This document shows, one piece after another, positions 8,319 to 58,800 of a stretch of 64,000 nt of DNA. The stretch covers positions 1 through 64,000 of IMG/VR virus record IMGVR_UViG_3300032309_000245, one strand, 5' to 3'. The notes beneath the pieces were generated by a model, which ran no database searches, was not told the origin of the DNA, and saw nothing but the letters and a program-made list of their open reading frames with translations. Source of the DNA: a virus. Position numbers and translations under genes: made by a program. Numbering within the stretch: the first letter of the stretch is position 1; each line of letters begins with the position of its first letter.

Positions 8319-9626
8319 TCAGTCGTTGTTGATCATTACTTTCTTGCCCACCGGGGGGTGGAACGATCTACTCTCCGTTACCATCCAGAGGGTTGGAGGG
8401 ATAACGTCCCACGTGAACGAAGACTCAACGTAGCCGTCAGTGAAAACAATCACACAGTCTGCGTTAATTCTCTCTCTGACGATGTAGTTACTAACGCAAC
8501 CAACCCGAGTGCCGCCGCCACCCACAGGCTTGAGCATATCTGCCAGTCCCATGTAGTTGCCCTCGAAGATCTGCTCGCCATGAACTTCCGTGTCCCACCA
8601 CAGAACGCGAACTTTTTCCGGTTCGCACAGATCACAGATAGATGCCAGTTCTGTCGCAAACCCCGTAAGAATTTCACCAGAGATAGACCCCGACGTATCG
8701 ATGGCGACCACTACCTCGCCGACAGTCTCGTTCTCGATGCTCGGCAGATACAGATCGTTGACCAACTGACGCTTGTTCAGCCGACGCCACGTGAACTCGT
8801 CCTTGCCACGGATCGATGACGACACGATATCGCGCAACGCATCTTTCCAATCTACCTTTGGCGTAAGAAGATCACTGATAGCGCGTGGCATTTGTGCGCC
8901 CATCCGCCCAGCTAGTAATCCACCCTCACGTAGAGCTTTATCAATCGCCTCGCCCATCTTCTTGATCTCGTCAGGCTCCATGCCCTCTACTAACTTTTCA
9001 AAGTCATGCTCGTCGAACCCACCGTCAGGAATTTCCTTCAACTCGTTACCGTTGATTTTTATCTTTCCTGACCCTTCGTCTTGACCATCAGCAGGCTCAT
9101 CCTCTGAGCCACCACCCGGAGCGGGATTCCCCTCGTCGCATGGCTTATCTTTCTTTCCACGTGGAGGTGGGGGAGGATTCTGCTTCTTCAGATAGTCCCA
9201 GATCTGACGCATAGACCAGTCGTGGAACATCGAGTCGTACAGCGCCCCGTCAGGCAACTCTACGATGCGCTCGTTGCCGCTACCGATTGTTCCAGTAATG
9301 TTATAGATGATGTCGTTCACAACCAGATCAGCGGCAATATTTGCCAGCTTCCTGTTCTCCTTGAAGAAGTCGAGGTGGCGAGGGATCTGCTTGAGCGCCA
9401 CGTGCAGGTTCTCGTGCAGGATCAGACCCCGACGCTTGGCAGGGTTAGTGATCTTCTCAAGGAATTGGCGGCAATACTTCTTGTTGACGCCATCGGTGTA
9501 CGCCGTGAAGTTGCCATCTTCTACGGCACTCTCTCCCATCAGCATGACGCCTGAATACAGGGCAGTCTGTGGGTGCTTCATCAGCGCGATGTGCGCTTGC
9601 TTCAACAGGGTCTCTTGACTAGACAT
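8319..9626 (-). CDS. VWA protein with metallopeptidase-like HExxH domain (DUF2201/CobT-like)
   Basis: A 435-residue protein with two domains. Residues 1-150 contain HENLH at 71-75 and a downstream A-A-D (98-100) and N104, as in predicted metallopeptidase domains of the DUF2201 type. Residues 150-195 are a low-complexity Pro/Gly/Asp linker. Residues 303-435 are a von Willebrand A domain with the metal-ion site D310-T-S-G-S314, T373 and D397 (VFTDG). Proteins like this pair with MoxR ATPases, which remodel a target through the VWA partner. The ATG at 9626 follows AGAGGA; upstream in-frame codons to 9680 lack support. The MoxR gene precedes it by 69 bases. Confidence 0.87.
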   Translation of the reverse strand: MSSQETLLKQAHIALMKHPQTALYSGVMLMGESAVEDGNFTAYTDGVNKKYCRQFLEKITNPAKRRGLILHENLHVALKQIPRHLDFFKENRKLANIAADLVVNDIIYNITGTIGSGNERIVELPDGALYDSMFHDWSMRQIWDYLKKQNPPPPPRGKKDKPCDEGNPAPGGGSEDEPADGQDEGSGKIKINGNELKEIPDGGFDEHDFEKLVEGMEPDEIKKMGEAIDKALREGGLLAGRMGAQMPRAISDLLTPKVDWKDALRDIVSSSIRGKDEFTWRRLNKRQLVNDLYLPSIENETVGEVVVAIDTSGSISGEILTGFATELASICDLCEPEKVRVLWWDTEVHGEQIFEGNYMGLADMLKPVGGGGTRVGCVSNYIVRERINADCVIVFTDGYVESSFTWDVIPPTLWMVTESRSFHPPVGKKVMINND

Positions 9627-9695
9627 ACTATCCTCTACTTGGTTAATTAACTGTCCACCCGAGGGTGGACTTACAAACACTGGGCACGAAACGCT

Positions 9696-10808
9696 TCAGA
9701 GCAACTCGTGATTGTTCTTCGCCCACTCGCCGATCTTCGCGTTGTTACGCGCGAGTTTGATCGACCGTGGGTTGCGCATCATCATGGTGAAGAACACCGC
9801 TTGAACCTCGGACGAACTGATACGCTCGACGAACTCCATGAATGAAGAGAGTTCATCCTGAGTCGCAAGCATATCGACCGCTTGGAACATCATCATCAAC
9901 TGCGCGGCGATGTCATCCGGGACGGGGATACCTTTGGGGTTCTTGATAACGTCTGCAACATCTGTGAGATTCTTCTCCATGTCGCAGAACACCATCATGT
10001 CCTTGGCAGCAGCTAACCCGATAGTCCCGGCCATACCTGCTTGGAAGAAGCGAGTCGTCAACTGATCGCGCTTACGCACGATCACATCGTTCTTCGCCAG
10101 CGAACGCGGAGACACGAACGACAACACCCCATTCCCCGGCTTGAAGATGTAGGGATTATCTTTTGTGTGATCTCCTTCTCTGTATGACTGCAGGCACTTC
10201 GGGTACATAGCAACCCACGCACGGGTGACACGGGAGATGCCGTTCTTGCTCGCCCATGTCAACCACTCGTTTACCGTTGGCTTCGCCAACTCCACGATAC
10301 ACACACGATTACCTGCGTGAGCGAGCATCGTGTCGCCCACACCGTCTGACGCATTGTTGGATGTTGCAATAATCCACGATCCATCAGGCAGCGCCTTGTC
10401 GCCGACCATACGCTCCAGCAGCATCCGGGTGAAGATCACCTGCAGCAACTTGGGCGCTTTGTTCAACTCGTCGAGCATGATCACCTTCGGACGCGGGTCG
10501 CTCAGGTTGAACAACGACGCCACGTAGTACATAAGTTCTTTGGTGACATGATCAGGGATAGTCATGCCGATGTCCGACATGTCCTTGACGGGACAGTCTA
10601 CGTAAATATAGTCACGACTGTCGTCAGCGTAGTGCTGACCTGCTTTGCGCCACTTGTCACCGTTGTCTTCGGCGAGCATAGCCAAGAGCGAACTCTTGCC
10701 ACACCCCGGCTCGGACAGGACAACCACCGACACCTCGTCACCGATCAGGGGGATGCCCTGACGCAGATCATCGATACTGACAACTGGACGGAAATTAAGT
10801 GCAGCCAT
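9696..10808 (-). CDS. MoxR-family AAA+ ATPase
   Basis: A 370-residue AAA+ ATPase of the MoxR/CobS type. Walker A is SEPGCGKSS (32-40), Walker B is VIMLDELNKA (109-118) and sensor 1 is IIATSNN (146-152). MoxR proteins act as chaperone motors with a VWA-domain partner, and here that partner is the next gene. ATG 10808 has GAGGAG eight bases upstream. Its place between the DUF3150-like and VWA genes under one promoter suggests a single complex. Confidence 0.93.
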   Translation of the reverse strand: MAALNFRPVVSIDDLRQGIPLIGDEVSVVVLSEPGCGKSSLLAMLAEDNGDKWRKAGQHYADDSRDYIYVDCPVKDMSDIGMTIPDHVTKELMYYVASLFNLSDPRPKVIMLDELNKAPKLLQVIFTRMLLERMVGDKALPDGSWIIATSNNASDGVGDTMLAHAGNRVCIVELAKPTVNEWLTWASKNGISRVTRAWVAMYPKCLQSYREGDHTKDNPYIFKPGNGVLSFVSPRSLAKNDVIVRKRDQLTTRFFQAGMAGTIGLAAAKDMMVFCDMEKNLTDVADVIKNPKGIPVPDDIAAQLMMMFQAVDMLATQDELSSFMEFVERISSSEVQAVFFTMMMRNPRSIKLARNNAKIGEWAKNNHELL

Positions 10809-11755: not shown

Positions 11756-11847
11756 GATATTTACCTTCCCACGTTCACGTGGATTACTGAATAAAGACTG
11801 AGATAAAGACTGACTTAGCGCGGCGACAAAGCGCCTTGCCAACTGAC

Positions 11848-11876
11848 ATTATACTACAAGTGTACATATGGTACAA
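11848..11876 (-). promoter_or_regulatory. Sigma-70-type promoter with built-in operator, copy 1
   Basis: On the minus strand: TTGTAC, 17 bases, TATAAT. The start of transcription would be near 11841, about 85 bases before the DUF3150-like gene. A perfect inverted repeat TGTAC-N5-GTACA (11861-11875) overlaps the -35 and part of the spacer, which suits repression by a dimeric regulator. The same block recurs at 13726-13754. Confidence 0.85.
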
Positions 11877-11894
11877 GGGTTGTGGGTAACTTTT

Positions 11895-12074
11895 TTATAC
11901 GGACAAAACCTCCTGTTCAACCTCTATGAGATACCCGAGCCTACGGATGCCGTCGAGCGTCGCAGGGGTGAGCGTTGAATGTCCCGCCATCTGCGCGAAG
12001 ATCTTGGCTTTGTCGCACATTGGGTAGACCGTGCGATTGCCATAAATATTTCTTACCCGAACAGTGATCGTCAT
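11895..12074 (-). CDS. Small conserved phage protein
   Basis: A 59-residue protein, MTITVRVRNIYGNRTVYPMC, then AKIFAQMAGHSTLTPATL and LGYLIEVEQE. Short proteins of this pattern are common in phage early regions and have no known role. ATG 12074 with AGGAGA upstream matches the usual family start. An in-frame ATG at 12110, three bases after the preceding stop, is an alternative that adds twelve residues. It is the last gene before promoter copy 1. Confidence 0.7.
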   Translation of the reverse strand: MTITVRVRNIYGNRTVYPMCDKAKIFAQMAGHSTLTPATLDGIRRLGYLIEVEQEVLSV

Positions 12075-13640: not shown

Positions 13641-13725
13641 GAATTCCACCTCCACGTGGGAAACTAATTAAAGACGCAGGTCACGGCACGGGCTAAGGTG
13701 TTGAGAACTCGCCGTGCCAATTCAC

Positions 13726-13754
13726 ATTATACTACAAGTGTACATATGGTACAA
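13726..13754 (-). promoter_or_regulatory. Sigma-70-type promoter with built-in operator, copy 2
   Basis: Identical in layout to copy 1: TTGTAC, 17 bases, TATAAT on the minus strand, with TGTAC-N5-GTACA at 13739-13753. Transcription would begin near 13719 and give an 80-base leader before the 13356-13640 gene. Identity with copy 1 extends beyond the core elements, which suggests selection or recent duplication. Confidence 0.85.
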
Positions 13755-13800
13755 GGGTTTGAGATAACTTTTTTTCGTGGGGCTGGCAGGGTGTTTTTGG

Positions 13801-14280
13801 AGATAGAAAATTTGGTTTCAGAAATGAAGTTTTGGGGTGGATTTTTGTTCCATTTGTTCCATTTGTTCCAATTTTGAAACTTTACGTAAGTCTACAATTT
13901 TCGTTGAAAAAACTAGGACGATCGTTTGTAAGTGCTTGATTTTTAATATAAAATATATACTATATTATATATAATAGTAGTAATTTAGTAGGTTTGTTCC
14001 GTTGTTCCATGTTTTTTAGGGGGAGGGGGGGTTTTGTGGTGTTTTTGGAGGAAAAGTTTTGCAGCGGCTGGGCCTGACGTGACGCCCCAGAAAAAACGCG
14101 ATAAAAGGGTCACCCCCTAAAAATCGTGGAACAAATGGAACAAACGGAACAAGCCTTTGTAATCAAAGACTTACAGCGTACTTCTCTGTTCCTACTTTAA
14201 GTATGCTTGGAACAAAAAAAGATAGAAAATTTGGTTTCAGAAATGAAGTCGGAGATACTTTATTTGGTTTCTAAAATGAA
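13801..14280. repeat. Iteron-like repeat region, candidate replication origin
   Basis: No gene fits in 13641-14436. The segment has three perfect tandem copies of TTTGTTCCA (13844-13870), two partial copies near 13993-14010, and three tandem copies of the complement TGGAACAAA/CGGAACAAG (14127-14153), with one more at 14208-14216. An AT-rich stretch lies between the two sets (about 13938-13990). A 30-base direct repeat flanks everything (13801-13830 and 14220-14249, identical), with a degenerate third copy at 14262-14280. Tandem iterons in opposite orientation around an AT-rich core are typical of origins; this is inference from layout. Confidence 0.6.
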
Positions 14281-14350
14281 ATTCCATCACCACGTGGAAC
14301 ACTATTTATCGAGCTAGCCTCGCGCACACCAAGCACGCTAAACGCGCGCG

Positions 14351-14370
14351 ACCACAAAGAACTGGCATCA
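14351..14370 (-). repeat. Cassette-linking element, copy 1
   Basis: Plus-strand ACCACAAAGAACTGGCATCA. Two near-identical copies occur at 15248 and 15908. Each copy lies just past a terminator on the minus strand. Confidence 0.75.
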
Positions 14371-14383
14371 GCCTTGCGGGGCC

Positions 14384-14421
14384 AAAAAAAAGGGGCCGCT
14401 GACCTTGCGGCCAGCGACCCC
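14384..14421 (-). terminator. Rho-independent terminator of the 216-residue gene
   Basis: A 13-bp stem on the minus strand (two G-U pairs) with a GCAA loop, followed by eight T. It begins 16 bases after the stop of the 14437-15087 gene. Confidence 0.88.
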
Positions 14422-14436
14422 CTTGTCGGTAATTAA

Positions 14437-15087
14437 TTACCTATTAGACCAAGCATTTACAAACGCTTCGATTGCAATGCCTAATGCTTTACTGTCTGCC
14501 GTGGGATCACCACGACTTGCAGCCGTCTTGCATTTAGATTTTAGATCATCTAATGCTTCTGACACTCTTACATCAAACCCTTTGGTAGCGCTACGTTCAC
14601 GCTTTTCACCTTTGATTTCTTTTTGTAATTGCCTTGCTTCGGCTGTTAGTTTACCTAACTTATTGCTCGCATAGGTAGAAAAATTATCACGCCATTGTTT
14701 TACTACTCTATGCTTTGCGGGTTCGGTATCTTTAAGACTACCGAATGATTGGCTAGAGAATGACATCGCAAAATCAACCCCGATAAAAGCTCTTTCGAGT
14801 TTATCGCATAGTTTTTTCTGTTTATCATCTAAGCCGTCGAAAACAACATAGTTGCCATCGACTATGACATATTCAACCTTTGGGTTATTTTCGTTATACC
14901 GAAGCTGATAACCCGAATAAAGTGTTGCTTTATCCGTTTTACTGATTTCTTCTGGAAACCCGACAATATTATCTAGGGCATATTTAGCCATTGTCCTGAG
15001 TGTATCACCCGTGACGGCTTGCTTATAACCCATATCCGCAATTGACGAATAAGAAGTGTAATCAATGGAAAGGTTGGTTTGTGACAT
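14437..15087 (-). CDS. Unknown protein in an autonomous cassette
   Basis: A 216-residue protein starting MSQTNLSIDYTSYSSIADMG with AGGGGA before the ATG. The first half is mixed alpha/beta (KVEYVIVDGNYVVFDGL). Residues 125-190 are a lysine- and arginine-rich helical region (KLTAEARQLQKEIKGEKRER). It has its own promoter and terminator, and its codon and base use is more AT-rich than the neighbouring genes, so it may have been acquired separately. No family recognised. Confidence 0.75.
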   Translation of the reverse strand: MSQTNLSIDYTSYSSIADMGYKQAVTGDTLRTMAKYALDNIVGFPEEISKTDKATLYSGYQLRYNENNPKVEYVIVDGNYVVFDGLDDKQKKLCDKLERAFIGVDFAMSFSSQSFGSLKDTEPAKHRVVKQWRDNFSTYASNKLGKLTAEARQLQKEIKGEKRERSATKGFDVRVSEALDDLKSKCKTAASRGDPTADSKALGIAIEAFVNAWSNR

Positions 15088-15157
15088 TTTAATCCCCTAA
15101 TAAATGGGTTGAAATAAAATATCGCAAATCGCATGTCAAGCAACTTGCGATGAATTG

Positions 15158-15185
15158 ACATTACCACAATGGGTATTAATGTAAA
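15158..15185 (-). promoter_or_regulatory. Cassette promoter, copy 1
   Basis: On the minus strand: TTTACA, 16 bases, TAATGT, preceded by CCCCGTGGAAC. The GGAACTTTACAT block is shared with the promoter at 15829 and nearly so with that at 16643. Transcription would start near 15151, 64 bases before the gene. Confidence 0.65.
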
Positions 15186-15247
15186 GTTCCACGGGGGGGT
15201 GACATGCTATATAGCGCGATTGCCCACGCCCGCACTGCACGCACGCG

Positions 15248-15267
15248 ACGACAAATAACTGGCATCA
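15248..15267 (-). repeat. Cassette-linking element, copy 2
   Basis: Plus-strand ACGACAAATAACTGGCATCA, one base different from copy 3. It lies between the terminator at 15280 and the promoter at 15158 in the direction of transcription. Confidence 0.75.
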
Positions 15268-15279
15268 AAACGTGGGCGC

Positions 15280-15310
15280 AAAAAAAGGGCAGGGGCCGAA
15301 GCCCCTGCCC
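15280..15310 (-). terminator. Rho-independent terminator of the 155-residue gene
   Basis: A perfect 10-bp GC-rich stem with a TTCG loop on the minus strand, then seven T. It starts 5 bases after the stop of the 15316-15783 gene. Confidence 0.92.
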
Positions 15311-15315
15311 TTAGA

Positions 15316-15783
15316 TCAATCTTCGCAGACGATCTTGTAGGTCTCTACCGTTTGGGTCTCAGTACCAACCAGCACCTTGCGGCACGTCGGACTGTCTGAT
15401 CTTACGTAAGCGCAAATGCTGACTGTGATCGTGTCGTACCACGACGGCCCGTACTTGAACTCAAACCGGAAGTCTCGGTTTAGCATGCTAGGGTACTCAG
15501 CCGTTGACATCGGTTCAAGACCGTCAACGTAGAGCAGGCTGTCCAAGATCATGGTCAACTTGCGATCAGTGAACCCGTCCAGATTCGGCAGATAGCAGTG
15601 AACCCGACCGCTAGAGCTGATGCTGACATCGCCGTCGCCAAGATCGTGTTGGAAGCACGACAAGATCTGACGGTAGACTTTCTTGTGGGCCAAAAAGTCC
15701 TTGATCTGTTTAGCGGCGCGCACCTTGTCGTAGCGCATTTTGCTGAGACCCGACGCGAGCAGTTCTGTAGGCTTGATTGCCAT
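15316..15783 (-). CDS. Unknown protein in an autonomous cassette
   Basis: A 155-residue protein from ATG 15783 (MAIKPTELLASGLSKMRYDK), with GGAGAA upstream. The N-terminal 45 residues are a basic helical region (KVRAAKQIKDFLAHKKVYRQ). The rest looks like a beta-rich domain (SSSGRVHCYLPNL, FRFEFKYGPSWYDTITVSI). It is flanked by its own promoter (15829) and terminator (15280). No family recognised. Confidence 0.75.
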   Translation of the reverse strand: MAIKPTELLASGLSKMRYDKVRAAKQIKDFLAHKKVYRQILSCFQHDLGDGDVSISSSGRVHCYLPNLDGFTDRKLTMILDSLLYVDGLEPMSTAEYPSMLNRDFRFEFKYGPSWYDTITVSICAYVRSDSPTCRKVLVGTETQTVETYKIVCED

Positions 15784-15828
15784 TTCATTCTCCAAAGTCT
15801 GCGACAGGGAATCCATCGCATTGAGTTC

Positions 15829-15857
15829 ACCTTACCCAAACCCGTATTAAATGTAAA
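15829..15857 (-). promoter_or_regulatory. Cassette promoter, copy 2
   Basis: On the minus strand: TTTACA, 17 bases, TAAGGT, preceded by CCCCGTGGAAC. About 70 bases around it are strongly similar to the region at 16610-16686. Transcription would start near 15822, some 40 bases before the gene. Confidence 0.7.
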
Positions 15858-15907
15858 GTTCCACGGGGGGGAGACCCACGCTGGCCTGCACGCGCCACAC
15901 GCGCCCG

Positions 15908-15927
15908 ACGACAAAGAACTGGCATCA
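15908..15927 (-). repeat. Cassette-linking element, copy 3
   Basis: Plus-strand ACGACAAAGAACTGGCATCA. It lies about 50 bases upstream (transcription sense) of the -35 of cassette promoter 2, just past a terminator. Confidence 0.75.
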
Positions 15928-15941
15928 GATGTGTAGGCCAC

Positions 15942-15974
15942 AAAAAAAGGGACAGGAGCCAAAGCTCCTGCCCC
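15942..15974 (-). terminator. Rho-independent terminator after the small-protein cassette
   Basis: An 11-bp stem with one G-U pair and a TTTG loop on the minus strand, followed by seven T. It follows the stop of the 15980-16177 gene by 5 bases. Confidence 0.9.
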
Positions 15975-15979
15975 TCAGA

Positions 15980-16177
15980 TCACTGCACTCTTACGATCTT
16001 GCGCAACTTGCCGTATCGCGCCCAGACTTGCGTCCCTTCGGGAACGTCTCGCTTTGAAACGTATCTCCCGTGGATCAGGAAGTCCTTGCCACCATGCCAG
16101 TCCTCTTTGACCAGCATCGCGCTCTTGTAATCCCGCCCGTAGGCGGGCGTGACGTGGAGATCAGCCGTAGATTGCAT
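15980..16177 (-). CDS. Small phage protein of unknown function
   Basis: A 65-residue protein (MQSTADLHVTPAYGRDYKSA) with the segment 'DFLIHGRYVSKRDVPEG' and a basic end 'YGKLRKIVRV'. A good AGGAG site sits inside the end of the upstream gene, which it overlaps by 17 bases. Last gene of the third cassette. Confidence 0.65.
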   Translation of the reverse strand: MQSTADLHVTPAYGRDYKSAMLVKEDWHGGKDFLIHGRYVSKRDVPEGTQVWARYGKLRKIVRVQ

Positions 16178-16385
16178 AGTGCATCTCCTCTTTCATGTCA
16201 CTCCAAATCTCTAGGATTTTGGAGTGAGACTCAGGCGCAACGCCTGATACGTAAGCAGCAGCGTGCGTAGGCTCAACGCCCCACGTGCAAGCTATCAGGT
16301 GTGGACCGGCTTTATACAAGCCGCCACCGACGAGGCCTTCCTCGATCAGTTGGATTTCGTGTCCGTCGTATTCTCCGTAGTACAT
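16161..16385 (-). CDS. Small phage protein of unknown function
   Basis: A 74-residue acidic protein (MYYGEYDGHEIQLIEEGLVG) with AGGAGA five bases before its ATG. It contains 'AAAYVSGVAPESHSKILEIW'. No family recognised. Middle gene of the third cassette. Confidence 0.6.
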   Translation of the reverse strand: MYYGEYDGHEIQLIEEGLVGGGLYKAGPHLIACTWGVEPTHAAAYVSGVAPESHSKILEIWSDMKEEMHYAIYG

Positions 16386-16401
16386 GCTACTCTCCTAAGT
16401 T

Positions 16402-16419
16402 GGGGGGCCGAAGCCCCCC
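16402..16419 (-). other. UUCG-capped hairpin between two cassette genes
   Basis: A perfect 7-bp stem GGGGGGC-TTCG-GCCCCCC on the minus strand, without a following T-tract. It lies between the 56-residue gene and the 16161 gene. It probably stabilises or tunes the shared transcript rather than ending it. Confidence 0.6.
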
Positions 16420-16424
16420 GAGGG

Positions 16425-16595
16425 TTAGATCAATCGGATCGCAAGGACCAGATCAATCACAAACAACACACCGAACGCAACCCCGAGGGTTGCATCGGGG
16501 AAGATTGGCTCAGCGCGCTGAGTACGATACGCAGACCAGCCGATCTGCCCGACGCGGAAGAAGTGGATTCCTCCGACTTTGCGATATGAAACCAT
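16425..16595 (-). CDS. 56-residue membrane protein, first gene of the third cassette
   Basis: A short gene with AGGAGA seven bases before ATG 16595. The protein starts MVSYRKVGGIHFFRVGQIGW and ends in one hydrophobic span (ATLGVAFGVLFVIDLVLAIR). It is likely an inner-membrane protein with its N-terminus and a short loop on one side. It lies about 40 bases after the predicted start of transcription of the third cassette promoter. Unknown function; possibly host-directed. Confidence 0.7.
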   Translation of the reverse strand: MVSYRKVGGIHFFRVGQIGWSAYRTQRAEPIFPDATLGVAFGVLFVIDLVLAIRLI

Positions 16596-16642
16596 GACGG
16601 TCTCTCCTGAGTCTGCTGCGAGGGATTCGCTGCATTGAGATC

Positions 16643-16671
16643 AACCTACCAAAACCCGTGGCAAATGTAAA
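16643..16671 (-). promoter_or_regulatory. Cassette promoter, copy 3
   Basis: On the minus strand: TTTACA, 17 bases, TAGGTT, preceded by CCCCCGTAAAAC. It resembles the promoters at 15158 and 15829. It is the first leftward promoter of the divergent region 16596-17002; the remainder of that stretch is low-complexity C-rich and AT-rich sequence without a gene. Confidence 0.65.
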
Positions 16672-16967
16672 GTTTTACGGGGGGGAGCACCGAAATCGCC
16701 CCGATCCGGCCCCCCATGCCCCCCACCCCCCGGATTCCCGCGATGGGACCCGCTCCCCCTATACCCTTGAATACGCACAAATAACCACAGAATTTCCCAA
16801 ATCTCACATGGTTAAACACATCGTTAGGCCCCCTTATGTAAATTTTTCTAAAAATTCTCCCAATCATATGTAAACTTACACCCCCAAAAACTCCCTTTTT
16901 CCAACTCGTCCCCACCCCTTGTTCTATAGAAATACCCCCCTTATGGGACCCAAACCTCCCCTTACTC

Positions 16968-17002: not shown

Positions 17003-17572
17003 ATGACTACCATTGTTCCTCCTATCGAAGAGAACATTCCTCTTCCAGATAATGCGCGGGAAGCTTTTCCTGAGTTGACGCCTACTCAGGAATTGAACAT
17101 GCGTGCGAATGTTGTGAAGCTAATGGCTGATTTGACCGGCCAAGTGCTCGCACCCACACAGGAGAACGTGGATCAAGCCAACGATTTGGCTCGTCAGATG
17201 ATGGCTGACCCCAAGCACCGCCCAGAATTTGGCCGGTATCCAAATGAGACCCTTGCGTATCTCGCAGGGATGGTCGCTCAGATGAACGTATCTATCGTTG
17301 ATGAGCTTTCAGACCTGAAGATGTACGTGGTCAATAGGCTGGTGATGGAGGTCGAGAACGCCAAGGACTCAAAGAATCGTATTTCTGCCCTATCTAAGCT
17401 AGGGGAAGTCGATGGCGTTGATGCGTTTAAGAAACGCAGCGAGATGACGGTCAAGGTGCAGACCATTGAAGAGGTTGAGAAAGAACTTTTGCTCACTCTA
17501 GATAGTCTAGAGTCCAAAGTAATTGATGTAGAGGCTAGAGAAATCGTAAGTAAAGATGCAACTAACTCCTGA
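17003..17572 (+). CDS. terS: Terminase small subunit-like protein
   Basis: A 189-residue protein immediately before, and overlapping by 17 bases, the large terminase gene. Residues 95-150 (ELSDLKMYVVNRLVMEVENA, then SKNRISALSKLGEVDGVDAF) resemble the C-terminal oligomerisation part of phage small terminases, which recognise the genome and regulate the motor. The N-terminal 60 residues would carry DNA binding, but no clear HTH is visible. Position and helix pattern are the main evidence. Confidence 0.75.
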   Translation: MTTIVPPIEENIPLPDNAREAFPELTPTQELNMRANVVKLMADLTGQVLAPTQENVDQANDLARQMMADPKHRPEFGRYPNETLAYLAGMVAQMNVSIVDELSDLKMYVVNRLVMEVENAKDSKNRISALSKLGEVDGVDAFKKRSEMTVKVQTIEEVEKELLLTLDSLESKVIDVEAREIVSKDATNS

Positions 17573-26294: not shown

Positions 26295-27206
26295 ATGGCC
26301 CTTGGGTTCGGGCTTGCCCTAACAAGCTACAGGAAAGCCGCTGGCGGTGGTGGCGGCACCCAGAAAGCTATTTTTGGGTATGGAGATCCCTTTACCGCAA
26401 TAACTAATTTAGTTAGTAATGCAGGGGTTGTTGCAACGAACACTACTGGCGTAGGCACGGTTAGGCGAAGATTGGCCGCTGCTGGTTATGGTAGCGATAA
26501 GGCTATTTTTGGTTATGGGCAGGACAATTCATTCAATTATGTTTCTATCACCAACTTAGTCAGTAATACCGGCGTAGTTGCTACAGACACCACAGGCGTT
26601 GGCACTGGTAGGAGTGTTTTAGCAGCGGCTGGTTACGGCGGCGATAAGGCCATATTTGGTTATGGAGACACCGGATCAAATACTGCTATAACTAATTTGG
26701 TCAGCAACACCGGAGTAGTTGCTACAGACACCGCAGGTGTTGGTACCGCTAGACGGGAGTTAGCCGCTGCTGGTTATGGTACGGATAAAGCAATATTTGG
26801 GTATGGCACGGGGCCAACAGCAGTAACCAACTTAGTCAGCAACACTGGGGTTGTAGCAACGGATACCACTGGTGTTGGTACCGCTAGACCCGCACTAGCA
26901 GCCGCTGGATATGGCACAGATAAGGCTATTTTTGGTTACGGGTATTCTGGCGGTGCAGTGTCTATAACCAATTTAGTTAGTAACGCGGGGGTTGTTTCAA
27001 CTGACACAACTGGTGTTGGCACAGCCCGATATGGCCTCGCCGCTGCCGGTTATGGTGGCGATAAAGCTATTTTCGGTTACGGAACTACTGGTTCTAATAC
27101 TGCCATAACTAATCTGGTTAGTAGCACTGGGGTTGTAGCAACGGATACTGCTGGGGTAGGTACGGCAAGGCAATACCTCGCCGCAGCAGGGTATTCCCTA
27201 ACTTAA
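26295..27206 (+). CDS. Six-repeat propeller-like protein, paralogue 1
   Basis: A 303-residue protein with a short leader MALGFGLALTSYRKAA and a glycine stretch, followed by six repeats of about 45 residues. Each repeat runs KAIFGYG, a variable loop, TNLVSNTGVVATDT, GVGTAR, two variable residues, LAAAGYG. Six such units fit a kelch-like six-bladed propeller. Conserved strands with variable loops suggest a binding surface, perhaps for a host or head-surface ligand. The adjacent gene is a paralogue with the same leader. Confidence 0.75.
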   Translation: MALGFGLALTSYRKAAGGGGGTQKAIFGYGDPFTAITNLVSNAGVVATNTTGVGTVRRRLAAAGYGSDKAIFGYGQDNSFNYVSITNLVSNTGVVATDTTGVGTGRSVLAAAGYGGDKAIFGYGDTGSNTAITNLVSNTGVVATDTAGVGTARRELAAAGYGTDKAIFGYGTGPTAVTNLVSNTGVVATDTTGVGTARPALAAAGYGTDKAIFGYGYSGGAVSITNLVSNAGVVSTDTTGVGTARYGLAAAGYGGDKAIFGYGTTGSNTAITNLVSSTGVVATDTAGVGTARQYLAAAGYSLT

Positions 27207-27210
27207 AGTC

Positions 27211-28146
27211 ATGGCACTAGGTTTTGGATTAGCACTGACAAGTTACCGAAAAGCCGCTGGCGGGGGTGGTGGGGGTGGCGGCACGCAGAAGGCTATATTT
27301 GGGTTTGGGTATAGTTCAAGTGTTACTGCCGTAACTAATTTAGTTAGCAGCACCGGTGTCGTTGCTACAGACACTGCTGGTGTTGGTACAGCGCGATATG
27401 GGCCAGCCGCTGCTGGTTATGGCACAGATAAAGCTATATTCGGTTATGGGTATAATGGCAGTGTTACTGTCTCAGTCACAAATTTGGTCAGTAACGCCGG
27501 GATTGTCGCAACGGATACTACTGGTGTTGGAACGGCAAGGCAGTATCTCGCCGCTGCTGGTTACGGGACCGATAAAGCTATTTTTGGGTATGGAGATACC
27601 GGAACAAATACTGCAATAACCAATCTTATTAGCAACACTGGAGTTGTTGCAACCAATACTGCCGGAGTTGGTTCGGCCAGAAATGCGCTTGCCGCATCGG
27701 GATATGGTGGTGATAAAGCCATATTTGGCTATGGAGATACCGGTTCAAAGACTGCTGTAACCAACCTAGTCAGCAATACCGGAGTAGTTGCTACAGACAC
27801 TACTGGCGTTGGTTCTGCTCGATTTAGATTAGCCGCTGCCGGTTATGGAACAGATAAAGCGATATTTGGTTATGGGGATTTGTCTTCTTTTGTTTATACA
27901 TCTATAACCAATCTTGTTAGCAATACCGGCGTAGTTGCCACTGACACCGCCGGTGTTGGTACCTCTAGGATGTATTTAGCAGCGGCGGGCTACGGTGGTG
28001 ATAAGGCCATATTTGGTTATGGGTATGCTGGTTTTGCAATTTCTAGCACTAATTTAGTTAGCAACACCGGAGTTGTTGCCACTGACACCGCCGTTGTTGG
28101 TACGGCTCGATGGTCGTTAGCCGCAGCAGGTTACTCACTTACTTAA
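27211..28146 (+). CDS. Six-repeat propeller-like protein, paralogue 2
   Basis: A 311-residue paralogue of the preceding protein, 4 bases downstream. It has the same leader MALGFGLALTSYRKAA, a longer glycine run and six repeats of the same consensus. The loops after KAIFGYG differ between blades and between paralogues (GSVTVS, SSFVYTS, AGFAISS). The leaders are identical in protein but differ at most synonymous positions, so the duplication is not recent. Confidence 0.75.
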   Translation: MALGFGLALTSYRKAAGGGGGGGGTQKAIFGFGYSSSVTAVTNLVSSTGVVATDTAGVGTARYGPAAAGYGTDKAIFGYGYNGSVTVSVTNLVSNAGIVATDTTGVGTARQYLAAAGYGTDKAIFGYGDTGTNTAITNLISNTGVVATNTAGVGSARNALAASGYGGDKAIFGYGDTGSKTAVTNLVSNTGVVATDTTGVGSARFRLAAAGYGTDKAIFGYGDLSSFVYTSITNLVSNTGVVATDTAGVGTSRMYLAAAGYGGDKAIFGYGYAGFAISSTNLVSNTGVVATDTAVVGTARWSLAAAGYSLT

Positions 28147-52300: not shown

Positions 52301-52821
52301 GAGATAAGGCAAGGTTTATGTCGCAAATTTTCGGCTCTCAACTTTCTGCCGAATCTAGTAGATATTCTGCGGACAAGAGTCTTGAAGGTACTACGTACGC
52401 GGCAAATGCTAATGTTCGGGCAGCGCAAATACGAGAACAATCTGCTCATGCGGATCGTGTAGCAAATCGGCAGACTGCTGACGAAAATAGACGCTTTGGG
52501 CAATACCAAGCTGCGGCTGAACAAGAGCGTCGAGCATTAAGTCGAATTGCAACTGAAGAAAACGGTGATCAATACAAAGCCGATGTTCGGCTGTTAGAGT
52601 CTGGGGCGAATTCTACTAACCCTACGATGATAGAGATGCGGAAGCAAGCTGAAGAGCGCGTCAATGCTCGAAAAAAAGAATGGAATACTATTAGAGATAA
52701 TGCCAAAAGAGATACTGAGTTAGCATACAGTCGCCTTGAAATGCAAGGGGCGCCACCTAGAAATACTACGAATATTCCAGAAACTCCGCCCCAAGGTGCG
52801 GTCAGACTGAAGAGTAAATAA
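49336..52821 (+). CDS. Large internal virion (ejection) protein, Gln-rich
   Basis: A 1161-residue protein with AAGGAG before the ATG. Residues 200-290 (DPYMQDVVDAQIREEQRAAS, then AGTYGGSAAALQKAENARNL) are a conserved feature of phage ejection proteins. Residues 290-520 are a glutamine/asparagine-rich helical region with two copies of QGLQGQYGL. Residues 560-660 hold glycine motifs (YKEGGAVDGGIMAYDVGG). Residues 730-810 are an Ala/Pro run. The C-terminus is a long coiled coil. It probably leaves the head with the DNA and helps build the trans-envelope channel. Confidence 0.8.
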   Translation: MGKGGGGGGQTTSTVTNSNIPDYARGYVENMLGATQHQLFNTTTDEQGNTVLGSPKPYQAYGGTYDAQGNQTSYDPSKGIAGFSPLQQQAQQGIAGMQMPGNFDVATQYTADAMQRAANAGYNPTQFGMDRLRGQTAQGVNLGSAPTAQAQTGEAAQLGNAPIYQGQQFNQPSNVGIERVSAPNLQNLQMQGAKDVGTRSFTDPGARQQYMDPYMQDVVDAQIREEQRAASKAEIARRGINRQAGTYGGSAAALQKAENARNLNTRIGDIRAKGLQSAYQSGMGQYNTEAQNRLQADLANQQAQQQTGVQNLSAALQTQGLGAQTGLTAQQLNQASGLQADLANQQMGYNSGLQNAQLRQQQQLANQGLQGQYGLQQGQMNQQMAMGNVANRQQTALANQGLQGQYGLAQGQMGQANQQFNAQQRQAANLANQQMRYNTQQAAEQSRQFGAGYGQQMNAQQLAAAQQLGGLGQNYLNAQQGLYGFQNQIGGQQQQQQQQILNQAIQDYSNSQQYPLMQLGTMSNMLRGLPMQAATTNMYQAAPNAITQGIGAIGAYGALNNAFGSPSGGARPYKEGGAVDGGIMAYDVGGRVENTLEDMGVDELKKYAKESSSPSIKRMAARMIQEKSMPVPRMARGGILAFAKSTDENNQSLVESDSGVMSEPPSRASILEAARRKISAAIGQKAPPKIEFASDRAENPPAPPARPAAPTLPPNYDFDAAERGATTRKAAPRPIAPAPAPAPAPAPAPTPATAPAGIAQAAAATAPAPRPPAGPPAGPALAPTGPAPASAPTGPVPAGPAPAGITSAPDYPGRPDIPDTPEHTAYREQAAAANANANKTVAQHLADIKAEQVAAGLDPENRGMQEYRSKIMAERANMDDEAKRQKNLRLAEFFASWGSTPGATLVAGMTALKKTIPTLIEDEKERKKAMREADKIIYELEQSERLEKKGNINAAADRKQNAAKIAEPFNSTLAKLAQDKTTASITAQGDKARFMSQIFGSQLSAESSRYSADKSLEGTTYAANANVRAAQIREQSAHADRVANRQTADENRRFGQYQAAAEQERRALSRIATEENGDQYKADVRLLESGANSTNPTMIEMRKQAEERVNARKKEWNTIRDNAKRDTELAYSRLEMQGAPPRNTTNIPETPPQGAVRLKSK

Positions 52822-55800
52822 TGCCTACATATGATGTTGACGTTGGTGGCTCTACGTATGAAGTAGACGCTCCCGATGAAAATACCGCGTGGAAATGGGC
52901 TAGATCAACTCATCTGCAACAAAATAAAGCCCCTAAACCAATAGCGACTACCCCTGCGCCAACCCCGGTCCCGGAACAACAGGGGCCGCGCGTCCTGCCG
53001 CCGGAAGATACCTCCAGTGATCTTTTCCGTGGGTTTACCAACTACGGTCCTCAGTTACAAGAAACTTTTGGTGGTTTTCAAGTTCTGACCGGACGCCTTG
53101 CTCAGAAAGTTGGTGCTGAAGAAACTGGAACCGGCTTGATTAAGCGCGGGGTTGAGAATCTGCAAAAAGCGGAAGCGAAAACCGTATCCAAGAAGACTGA
53201 CGAATTTACCGAAGCCCTTAAAGAAGGGATCATTCCCCTGATTACTGACTGGCTCCCATATCAGATTGGTTCGGGTGCGGCTAACTTGGCCGAAACGCTT
53301 GGTGTAATGGCAGTCGGTGCGGGTGTTGGCGCGGCTACTGGCGCGGGCGTCGGTGCGCTCCCCGGTGCGATCTCTGGTGCGGTTGCTAAAAATTTGGTCA
53401 AAAAAGGCATCATTGAAGAAGCTAAAAAGCTAAGCAAAGATAAGGCCGAGGAATACATCCTCAAAGAAGCCAAAAAAGAACTCATTACTATGGGTAGCGT
53501 GGCTGGCATGGGGGGCCAAGCGGTCCTACATGGCGCTGGCGAAACTACAAGTCGGGCGGTGCAGGAAGCACAACGCAATAACCAGACCCCCGAAGACATC
53601 AATCTTGGACGCCTTGTCCCTGCCGCAATTGTTCATTCGGTTGCAGACTTCTTCGTTAACAAGATTGGGGTCGATGCACTCAAAGTTGGTGAGAAAGCTT
53701 CTAATTCATTAATTGCTGAAGTCGCTAAACGTATTGCCGTCACCGGTGGCAAAGAGATTCTCCCCGAAGAAATTCAGTCGGTGGCAGAGCGCTTTGGTGC
53801 AAACCTTTCGGTTGCTGATGCAGAAGCGCTAAAAGAGTACGTCAATACCGCCGCCGCTTCGTTTGGTATGGCGGTTGTCCCCGGTGGGGTCGGGGGAGCG
53901 CGAAACTACTTTAGCAATCAGTTCGCCAAAGCCGCTAAAGAACAGGCCGAAAGAGAAGCTGCGGATAAACTCAAGCAGCAACAAACGCAACAAACGGCTC
54001 CCCCTCCAGCCGCCCCCACAACGCCAGCCGACGCAGCGGCGCAAGCAGAACTCGATAGCCTGCTGAATCTTCAGAACGCACCGCCGCCCCCACCACCGGG
54101 GGCTGCTACAACTGCGCCGGGAACCCCGCCGCCACCACCTCCGGGAACCCCTGCTGGAGAAGCCGGAACCACGCCCCCTGCGGAAACCAAACCAAAACTT
54201 CAAAACGCGCCAATCCCTAGTAAAGTAGACATTGAGGCTGACCCAATTGCTACTGCAACGAAGTATCTTGAAGATTTGGCTTCAACTGGTGGTAGAGCAA
54301 ACGCGTTGCCACTGAAGCAATTTACAAAACTTTTTGGGTTGACGGTCCAAAGTGGTGAAGGCTTTAACCAACGCGCGCTAGACGCAATTAAGCAACATCT
54401 TGCTCAACAAGGAGCACCCAATGCCCCTACAGGAACTGTCGAGACCCCAACTGGAACAAGCGCTGGCGTGGCTGGCGTCCCCGATACAGGAACCGCCACC
54501 GAAGTCGCTACCACCCCTGACACAAATGGAGTGGGCGGTACTGAACCAAGCACTACATCAACTGATGTCGGAGAAGGAACTGAATCCACTTCAGTAGGCC
54601 CGTACGCTCATCTATCTGAGGATCAAAGAGAAGAGTTATTTAACGCGCGCATGGGTTACTACAACGACGTAGCCTCTGGAGAAGTTTCACAGAAAGCGTT
54701 GGATAGAAGGCGGGCGCGGCTGAACGAACTTGAGACTCAGTTTGATGTTTTGCTTACCGAAGCAAGTGCGGGGCTTCCATCTATATCAGGCGGAACTGAC
54801 CTTGGCGGCACAAACTTTGTCTGGCATGAAATCCCTGATGACCAGAACATAGCCGCTGAAGCTGCGAAGACTCCCAGCTATTCTATATTTAAACCGTTGG
54901 CTGGTTGGACGCAGGACTTTGCAAGGCAAGTTCGCATGGCGTTTGCTCGTCGCGTAGAAGAAAAAGAAACCGCTTCTGCCGAAGAAGAGCGTAAATCTAA
55001 TTTAATTCTGTCAAATAAATTGACACTGGGGCCGTACTTTTCAAAAGGAAAAAACGCCAAAGAAACCCTTGCATCGGCTAAAACAAAATATGAAGAAGCG
55101 CGAGATATAGTTAATTCGTTAGCGGAAGAATCAAACGAAGACCGTACTTTGTTGGTTGAAGCGCGTCAGGCGGCCAAAGCCCAACTCCCGGTAGCGCGAA
55201 AAGAACATGACGCGTTCATGGATAAGTATGATGAGCAAGCCGAACCCATCGAAGCCGAAATCGCAAAAGCGGTACGGGAAAAAAATAACGACCGCGTTAA
55301 TTTGCTGGGCAAACAACTTGCGGCATTACAGCAAGCCAAAGAAGCTGCTGATCAAGCACTCAGAGAAGCGCAAAACGCATACAGAGAAGCTGCGGTTGCC
55401 GTAGAGAAACACGACGAAGAGCATGGCGGGCAAGTTTTAATGTTGCCTGAATGGAACGATAAGGGTGATTTTGCCGCTCATTTAAAAGATGTTTACTACA
55501 GCAATGTGCGAGACATAGGTTCTATCCAAGAAAATCTACGCGCCGCTAGGATTTTGCAGCAACACTTGCGTACGCTTAGCTCTGAATATGGAAATACGGA
55601 AGGGCGCGCAGAAGAAATGCGCGTTGCCAACAATTACAACGAAAACCGCGATACTGCTAGTCGGGCGTTTGGAGTTTATTTCCCTAAATGGGCCGACCTG
55701 TCAGAAAAAGCCCGAGAGCTTTATTCTGATTACATCGTAAATCACTCTGGTCTACAGCAAGATTTGGCGTTTACAAAACTTGCTTCAAATATGGCCGCTG

Positions 55801-58800
55801 AAAAATACGGCAAAGACTCTAAAGAAGCCAAAAAAGTTGAGGCTGAAGTAAAGGCGCGACAAGAGCGCATTGCTGAAGAAGGTAAAAAGCAACAAAAGAA
55901 ATTTCAAGAACAACGTGAAAAAATGCCGCCGCCTATTCCTCGGGTCAAAGACCATGAGAATGCTCGGGCGCAAAGGGCGTTGACTCAGCGTGCGCTCAAG
56001 GCTATCAAAGAAGGGAAGATCCAAGATCTCCTAGATGCCTTGCGTGATAAGGTAGTAAAGAACGAAACCCGCGACGGCAAACTGAACGCGGCGCTTGCCA
56101 ACATATTGCATGGGCTAAATCTCAAAACCAAGATCCGAATGGTTGAGAGTTTGACCGGCAATAACGGTGCTCGTGCCGATGGCATGTACGATCCTGTAAA
56201 GGATGAGATTCTTATTGCTAGGTACGCGTTCTTTGAAGACACGGTGCTGCACGAAATCGTACACGCGGCGACCGTACAAGTCCTCAACAAGTTCAACAAG
56301 GGCGGTGCGGAAAGGGCTTCTTTGACGGAAGAACAACGGCAAGCTGTCCAGCAGTTGTACGACATCATGTACGAAACCAAGGACGTTCTTGGTGAAAAAT
56401 TCCCTAATGCGTACGCAAACGTGTTTGAGTTTGTGTCTTACGGGATGACGGATCAGTCATTCAAGACTGCTCTTCAAAGTATTAAATCTCAGGGTGTTGC
56501 TGAAACAATCAACGCCGTTGCCGAAGCACAAAAGCTAGTTAGCGCAGCGCCACATAAAGTTTGGCGAGCAGCCAGAATTATCGATACCCTAATTCCAGTT
56601 AAAAACAAATGGTCTGAGTTTGTAAAAGCCGTTGCCAAAGCTGTAGGGTATACCGGCAAAGCTGCGCCGCCTCCGTTTTTGAAAGTCCTTGGTAAACAGT
56701 ACCAACGGATGGAAGGTGGTGTGTACGGCGAAGAAGAGCGGATGAGTCTGCCTACTTCCGTGCAGCCTATCTTTGAAATCAACTATGTGATGGAGATTGC
56801 CAACGCGTTTGAAAGGATCATGTCGGTCCCAACCGGTGGCATCGAGTTGCAAGAGCAACTTCTTGCCCAACCACAACAGATCCAACAAACGCCACCACGT
56901 GCCGGACCACAGCCAAAGCAAGCGCCCCCACTGCGTACTATTGATCTTGATGATGACGCTGATTCAAACTACACGCGGTTTAGAGGAGAAAAAGTTCCGT
57001 TAACCACGGCGCTTAAAAATGCGTTTACTACCAAACAAGGGTTCGTAGCGCTAGCCACTAAGTTCGCAAACAACCGATATGCGGTCAAGGCGTGGGAGAC
57101 TGCACGCGAGCGCGCCAAGTTAATTAATTTTAGCGGCCCAAATATCAACGCCATCTACACGTTGCTGACACTTGCGCCAGCGCGAGGTAGGTCTATATTT
57201 AATGAAGAGATTGCTCCAATCGCTGACGAACTTCGTGGCTCAATAGAAGAATACGCAAAAGCCATGAATACTGATGTGGACAAGGTGCTTGCCCGCTTGC
57301 ACAAAATCATGGAGGTTCTGCACAACCCGGAACGTAGCATGGTGAAGTTCTTGTTGTCGGCTCCGCTTGCTAATGATGCTAACAACAAACCTTTCATAGT
57401 TAACGGCCAGCCAGATACGGCGGCTGGTGTACGTACAGCCATACTTAATCAGCTTAATAGAAGCCAGAGCATGACGCAGGCGCAGGCTCTTCAACTGCGG
57501 TCTACGTTAGAAAGCATCGTATTCCAGACCCAAGTGAATCCGTCTGGTCAAGTTGAGATCATGCGCGATGCGAACGGCAATCCGCTCGTTAATACAAACA
57601 ACGTGGTGGCTACTGGAGAAAGCCCAGACGGTATGAAGGAGATTGATCCTTCCCATCAGACGTACAACATGACGAATCTTGATCCTGCAAGTATCAGTAG
57701 AGTCACTAGCCAATATCTCAACGACCCGCACAAGGCGTTGGTAGACAAGATCGTTGGCGATATGCGACGGCTCAATGAAAAGACTATTGAGCTAGACAAG
57801 CAGTCCAACTATTGGTCAAAGCCCGTCGATAATCGGAAGAACTTCTACAACTTCCAAAACTACATCTCGTTCAAAGGTAAAGACTCCCATACTGAAACTG
57901 ATCAGATGTTAGATTTTGAAACCATGAAAACGGGTGGCAAAGAATACCAAGAGATCGAAAGACCAATGTCTGGCCGAACAACCGCTGGTGACAATCCGGT
58001 GCTTCATGCTATGGCATATGCCACACAAGCTGCGCTACGTGCTGGCCGTAAAGATGTGACGCTTGCAATTAAGAACGCGATTGAACAGAAACTAATTAAT
58101 GGAAAAGTTGGCGCTAAAGTGCCGTTTGAAGATCGAGACAAAAAGGATTTTATTGACAGTCTTAACCGCGAACGCACCGTCTTCCATTTTAATGACGATG
58201 GTAGTCTTCAGGTTCTTGAGATCTCTGACCCAACACTACGTGAGTCGATTCGCCGTACGTTCGAGTCTTCAAACACTCTTGTTACCGCAGCTAACTGGCT
58301 GACCAGCAAAGTGGGCGCGATGCACACTCGGTATAACTTTAACTTTGCGCCGATGAACTTCACGCGCGATGCGTTGACTAACGCGGGTGCGATTGGTGCG
58401 GACATGGGTCCGAAGAAAGCTGCTGAATATTTAGGCGCAATGTCTGCCCTTGTAGCCAACGGTGGCTTGATGAAGGCGATGAAGGTCGCCATTCTGTACG
58501 ACAAGACAGATGCTACAAGCCAACAAACTCTTAGAGGTCTGGCTAACTCTGACCCGTTCATTGCAAACATGGTTGAGTTCATCAAAGAGGGCGGCATGGT
58601 GTCGTACCTTCACGGGCTGACCATCAAGTCAAACTTTGAGCAACTCTACAAAGAGATCGGTCGGTCAGGGATCATCAAGAAAAAAGAACAGCTAGAGAAG
58701 TTCATCGATGTTTGGACGGACATGTTTGAATTGGCAAGCCGCTCTGCTGCATACAGTGTGGCTAAAGCTGACGCAACCGCTAATGGATATACTGGTGATG

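Follow-up and report, generated by a model that had tools for sequence, protein, structure and literature searches.

A tandem array of small promoter–gene–terminator units with a conserved motif behind each terminator in a phage lineage known from metagenomes

Do three consecutive sets of small phage genes, each with control sequences of its own, form an exchangeable array, and what is the conserved motif that they share? The question is raised by positions 14342-16690 of the window, which is the whole 64,000-nucleotide stretch analyzed here (positions 1-64,000 of the 64,640-base IMG/VR virus record IMGVR_UViG_3300032309_000245). The locus consists of three tandem minus-strand units, each running from a predicted promoter through its gene or genes to a hairpin-T terminator and then to a conserved motif, which we named EL. 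With a probability of about 0.72, we read it as an array of expression cassettes that are autonomous and probably early; the units would be duplicated or deleted by recombination at a shared control repeat.

An earlier note on this DNA had described three promoter–gene–terminator units, with open reading frames (ORFs) of 216, 155, 65, 74 and 56 aa, and, behind each terminator, a 20-base element that in two of the three cases stands before the next promoter. The promoters, terminators, ORFs and placement of the element were all confirmed, the element itself being really about 31 nt long. The promoter block was also found three times (15178-15198, 15850-15870 and, with two changes, 16664-16684), while the coordinates assigned to it in that note, 15158, 15829 and 16643, correspond to the -10 ends.

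Unit 1 starts from a promoter at 16643-16671 (TTTACA at 16671-16666, a 17-nt spacer and TAGGTT at 16648-16643), which matches the block with two mismatches and shares with unit 2 an 85-nt promoter-plus-leader repeat of 76% identity. It contains genes of 56 aa (16425-16595), 74 aa (16161-16385) and 65 aa (15980-16177, with no database match), followed by a terminator hairpin with T-tract (15947-15976; RNA folding z-score -5.4) and by the 31-nt EL copy 1 (15899-15929). The sequence of the 56-aa product suggests a small membrane protein, and motif-sharing relatives (RVGG...F.RVG type) occur in the first unit of L006, L020 and L023, where L plus a number denotes a relative locus from IMG/VR; as the automatic cluster of first-unit ORFs (f1) was contaminated by overlapping frames, no frequency is claimed for this gene. 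The 74-aa gene belongs to a family (f22) that was also found in unit 1 of L007 and, as a unit of its own, in L008.

Unit 2 has a block-matching promoter at 15829-15857 (TTTACA, 17 nt, TAAGGT) and, 2 nt from the predicted +1, a 5' mRNA hairpin at 15800-15820 (TGCGATGGATTCCCTGTCGCA; z -1.7), which L004 retains although the stem bases have changed (TGCAACGGATTCCCCGTTGCA). The 155-aa gene of the family termed c9 (15316-15783) is followed by a terminator identified by terminator scan and RNA folding (15285-15312), by EL copy 2 (15239-15269) and by the palindrome CTATATAG (15207-15214), which lies between EL and the next promoter and belongs to the enriched class YTAWWTAR. In unit 3, a block-matching promoter (15158-15185; TTTACA, 16 nt, TAATGT) precedes a 12-bp 5' mRNA hairpin at the predicted +1 (15121-15151; z -5.2), the 216-aa gene of the family termed c10 (14437-15087), a terminator (14389-14424; z -5.8) and EL copy 3 (14342-14372). 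Behind this last copy lies an inverted repeat, TTCCA...TGGAA (14282-14299), seen in the sequence and in line with the dyad enrichment described below. Of the terminator-like sites in 16 kb, the three unit terminators rank highest, with RNA z-scores of -5.4 to -5.8.

Within the window, EL is confined to the array locus. The core sites (14349-14370, 15246-15267 and 15906-15927, minus strand, at most one mismatch) had no counterpart in 100 shuffles, and scores with a position weight matrix (PWM) were 46.9, 50.6 and 43.7 for copies 1, 2 and 3 and -2.5 for the next-best site, so that there is no fourth copy. A consensus built from 196 non-redundant copies extends from -1 to about +28 (about 31 nt, TTGATRCCAGTTMTKTGTCGTCGCGCGCGTG) and includes an asymmetric core of 23 bp; the invariance of CCAGT within it is by construction, because CCAGT seeded the scan. 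Directly upstream of 143 of the 196 copies there is a terminator-like stem (at least 7 bp, with a T-rich tail), compared to 12 in shuffles. Folding z-scores averaged -4.2 upstream of EL and +0.9 for EL itself (+0.2 for the single example), and the reading of EL as an RNA hairpin was rejected.

Downstream of EL there is a G/C- and GT-rich stretch, along with a YTAWWTAR palindrome and dyads; at many internal positions, a good promoter comes next. The palindrome class accompanies 105 of the 196 copies (4.2 in shuffles), and 6-bp dyads were present in 81 of the 196 downstream regions (25.9 in shuffles). At internal sites, the promoter consensus is AACTTKACA-17-TATAAT, that is, of the sigma70 type. 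A good promoter was found past EL at 35 of 90 internal sites but after the last unit in only 8 of 72 cases and, since EL is kept there while the promoter usually is not, EL goes with the 3' end of the unit. The leaders of c9 and c10 units (predicted +1 to +45) also tend to fold, with a mean z of -2.2 and 68% of them below -1.5, compared to -0.26 and 14% inside genes; the stem sequences of these hairpins differ freely from unit to unit. A promoter for a single-subunit phage RNA polymerase was considered as well and is unsupported, given that no such polymerase is present among the scanned genes and that EL is confined to the array.

In IMG/VR, EL was retrieved from 25 stretches by the 20-base pattern and from at least 119 by a looser 17-base pattern, and it can thus be used as a search handle that flags a single accessory-gene locus in more than 100 uncultured phage contigs. 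Nearly all of these loci lie between an opposite-strand gene resembling terS, the gene of the terminase small subunit (TerS; 108 loci), and early genes or an iteron region. In the window, the divergent TerS gene that bounds the array (17003-17572, plus strand) has a weak PHROG match. Outside this lineage, a 16-base EL pattern gave 105 scattered matches to cellular genomes of unrelated phyla, approximately the chance level, and therefore no evidence for EL in cellular genomes. The EL control region was not found in known phages either, as distant matches reached only the terminator end of the query, and Rfam searches of the array returned only sub-threshold matches, on the terminator hairpins.

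Profile searches detected c10 in 110 EL loci and c9 in 45. Hence c10 is present in nearly every array, with two or three tandem paralogues in many relatives, and c9 in about 40% of the loci, in fixed order before c10. Arrays carry one to four EL copies, the copy number being equal to the number of units; the common types are EL-c9-EL-c10-EL, EL-c10-EL, EL-c10-EL-c10-EL and c9-EL-c10-EL. The recurring order is TerS (minus), one or more units, EL, c9, EL, c10, EL, and strong variation is mainly found in the unit or units on the terminase side. The genes between the repeats had been taken to be unrelated and the whole array to be exchangeable. The former does not hold for c9 and c10, which are conserved families in fixed order, c10 being near-universal; the latter holds insofar as unit content varies between close relatives, but free exchange of the genes is not supported, free variation being found mainly in the terminase-side unit.

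That variation is one of whole units. The eight loci that are closest to the window show six or more arrangements of units, as had been anticipated for related genomes if the conserved elements delimit cassettes. L008 has two extra units compared to L011 and L028, both of which join the left and right parts via a single hybrid repeat (about 120 nt). A c10 unit of 690-770 nt that is found in L169, L188, L220, L223 and L225 is missing from L235, with an overlap of 34-108 nt centred 0-19 nt from EL. L143 lacks the first unit of L187, the breakpoints being within promoters. L007 and L020 are without the c9 unit: their common right block begins 38-54 nt before EL, and the block that L007 shares with the window begins at 15305, within the unit 2 terminator. 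In total, 13 of 25 insertion/deletion (indel) records between close relatives fall at EL, although EL with its 60-nt flanks makes up 10.8% of the array sequence. These indels are most simply read as the outcome of homologous recombination between control repeats, a model that can be tested on the unit gains and losses which the relatives naturally offer. It is unlikely that the locus is instead an ordinary conserved early operon of fixed genes, with separate promoters that arose by chance duplication and no cassette dynamics: the c9-c10 order is indeed fixed and some groups, such as that of L169, are uniform, but whole-unit indels with hybrid repeats were seen between relatives of about 80% TerS DNA identity or more. 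Neither were the same genes found in fixed order without the repeats, since genes of fixed order keep them.

According to the cassette reading, host sigma70 RNA polymerase would read every unit from the unit's own promoter, and each transcript, with one to three small genes, would end at the hairpin terminator. Most c9 and c10 transcripts would begin with a predicted 5' hairpin that may protect the message, in the way a 5' hairpin protects mRNA in ompA-type leaders. Terminator, EL, palindrome, promoter and leader would together form a composite repeat common to neighbouring units, and because of this homologous recombination could duplicate or delete whole units. The expected outcome is a fixed core (c10, often with c9) next to a fast-changing slot adjoining the terminase gene.

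Several observations weigh against this proposal. The timing, the use of the promoters and the ends of the RNAs are predicted from sequence. The -10 of unit 1 is weak, and so is its leader hairpin (z -1.0, non-significant); within the window, the leader hairpin is strong only in unit 3 and moderate in unit 2. The indel records are non-independent, and those not at EL fall mainly inside the variable first unit. Furthermore, EL was the handle by which most loci had been retrieved, so that its association with c10 is partly by construction, and c10 did not stand out as the partner of EL in a co-variation test.

With regard to the role of EL, its position behind terminators, asymmetry, absence of RNA structure and deep conservation make a DNA site for a protein, linked to the unit's 3' boundary, the most likely interpretation, rather than an RNA structure. 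Whether it acts there as a boundary element, that is, as a transcription roadblock, a supercoil insulator or a replication-fork barrier, can be suggested only tentatively. The match between EL copy number and unit number, the nearly constant location 3' of a hairpin, the asymmetric 23-bp core and the persistence of EL past the last unit without a promoter are all compatible with such a role, and the position is comparable to that of the repetitive extragenic palindromic (REP) sequences and bacterial interspersed mosaic elements (BIMEs) after E. coli operons. REP/BIME elements are repeats located just past terminators or operon ends, as EL is; the EL core differs from them in being asymmetric, unstructured and restricted to one locus. 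On the other side, no relation in sequence between EL and a known barrier, REP or Ter site was established, nor is a trans factor known. In its broader form, the proposal is that EL and the palindromes constitute an undescribed phage DNA element, which would be bound by a dedicated factor where strong early units have their 3' boundary, would insulate neighbouring units and, by its repetition, would keep the tandem array evolvable, with host-interaction genes that evolve fast; this, too, is possible rather than probable.

A doubtful alternative is that EL and the palindromes are operators, and that a phage regulator, perhaps c10, binds EL near the promoters and switches the units together. The distance from EL to the -35 is fairly regular (median 57 nt), and c10 is basic (family median isoelectric point 9.0), its C-terminal half having a net charge of about +8. 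Besides its presence in nearly every EL array, c10 led back to EL when a protein search independent of the motif was performed: all 13 loci recovered, which belong to one clade and include several contigs already in the EL-fetched set, carry EL on the side or sides covered by the contig. Against this alternative, EL also stands behind the last unit, where a good promoter is usually missing, and is lacking before the first unit. Moreover, EL similarity tracks TerS and not c10 (partial r 0.50 vs. 0.005); a role of c10 as an iteron- or EL-binding protein is unsupported by co-variation.

The iterons lie directly past the last EL, at 13660-14340, in a non-coding, AT-rich region packed with TTGTTCC/GGAACAA. 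Most relatives have iterons in the same place, where a word specific to the lineage (GTTCCA, GTTCTA, GTTCAA, ATTCCA or GTTACA) occurs about 8-20 times, compared to about four in shuffles. From its sequence, the region is a candidate replication origin or packaging/operator site.

That EL itself serves DNA packaging, with TerS recognizing the EL copies or the neighbouring iterons, is distinctly improbable. The array adjoins terS, and TerS identity correlates with EL similarity over and above the terminase large subunit (TerL; partial r 0.34), as TerS does with iteron type over and above c10 (partial r 0.29). Nevertheless, the phylogeny may simply be better resolved by TerS than by the conserved TerL, and terS and the array are physically linked; the variable copy number, the spacing of 650-900 nt and the strict coupling to terminators also speak against packaging, as pac and cos sites are not known to have these features. 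The covariation of EL and TerS may thus reflect linkage and phylogeny, or packaging.

As for the proteins, ratios of non-synonymous to synonymous substitution (dN/dS) of 0.06-0.13 for c9 and c10 (about 0.08 for c9 compared to L004 and about 0.12 for c10) indicate that both are real genes under purifying selection between close relatives. Mean identity between genomes is 31% for c10 and 52% for TerS, while a larger set gave 79% for TerL; the rapid divergence of c10 is compatible with a host-facing role. The earlier expectation that the products match nothing known was borne out, as no family library names any array protein. Neither c9 nor c10 had a match in PHROGs, Pfam or PDB, or by tblastn in 50,697 phage records, and c10 had none in plasmids. 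Searches of the array proteins against PADLOC, which covers defence and not anti-defence, Pfam and PHROGs gave nothing convincing. Structure models of the core proteins were confident (predicted local distance difference test, pLDDT, 88.6 and 91.9); that of c10 matched nothing significantly, and the weak matches of c9 to a DNA-polymerase-lambda-like fold (template modelling score 0.37, E at least 0.004) were not accepted. By these sequence comparisons c9 and c10 are new families and, together with the variable first-unit genes, they can be screened for anti-defence or host-takeover functions.

Among known systems, the closest likeness is to the promoter early stem-loop (PeSL) elements of T4-like myoviruses, described as composite promoter–terminator motifs that are located between small accessory genes and through which genes are reportedly shuffled between related phages (PMC4503421, citing Arbiol et al. 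2010 and Comeau et al. 2014). Both systems combine a repeated intergenic stem-loop terminator with an early-type promoter ("early" being deduced here from sigma70-type promoters), and in both small genes are gained, lost or shuffled between close relatives. Unlike the PeSL described, the array is not in a T4-like myovirus, as indicated by a family-A DNA polymerase and a TerL that is 48-52% identical to those of HTVC023P/027P and DSL-LC04; it is chained at one locus beside terS, has a conserved motif of 23-31 nt without a match in the phage collection, retains a core gene family and carries 5' leader hairpins. Since anatomy and dynamics are common but the lineage is not, and EL and a retained core are added, we liken the array to PeSL without classing it as a member. 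The promoter–terminator cassette shuffling known from T4-like phages would thereby be extended to an unrelated lineage.

Array genes are also flanked by their own predicted promoter and terminator, and the extra units of L008 are inserted between genes that are adjacent in L011 and L028. In this they resemble morons, which are self-contained promoter–gene–terminator insertions, but the units form a chain with common control repeats and a conserved gene core instead of being single inserted genes. No sign of a prophage life style was detected among the window genes scanned. Integron gene cassettes likewise stand in a row, with a conserved folded attC site 3' of each gene. In contrast to these, every unit of the array is equipped with a promoter, EL lacks folding, and the changes resemble homologous recombination. 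Among the part of the window proteins that was scanned, there was no site-specific integrase.

Around the array, rightward genes encode TerL (from 17556), the portal protein (from 19080) and structural proteins, and leftward genes encode DNA polymerase A, a helicase, an exonuclease and an AAA/VWA pair. The nearest TerL proteins are those of the Pelagibacter phages and phage DSL-LC04 named above, at best at that identity, and the array DNA had no near match among the phage records. The lineage, known here from metagenomes alone, is apparently abundant and without a close record in that collection.

Other features of the window include a VWA/metallopeptidase-like (DUF2201) gene adjoining the ATPase gene (8319-10808), two neighbouring proteins with numerous degenerate internal repeats of ~141 nt (26295-28146) and a 2435-aa protein with an LPD38 "large polyvalent protein" domain at its C-terminus (52821-60128). 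Finally, the leftward operon has a sigma70-type promoter region in duplicate: a 72-nt direct repeat (86%) lies at 11825-11896 and 13703-13774, and its minus strand holds TTGTAC-17-TATAAT.

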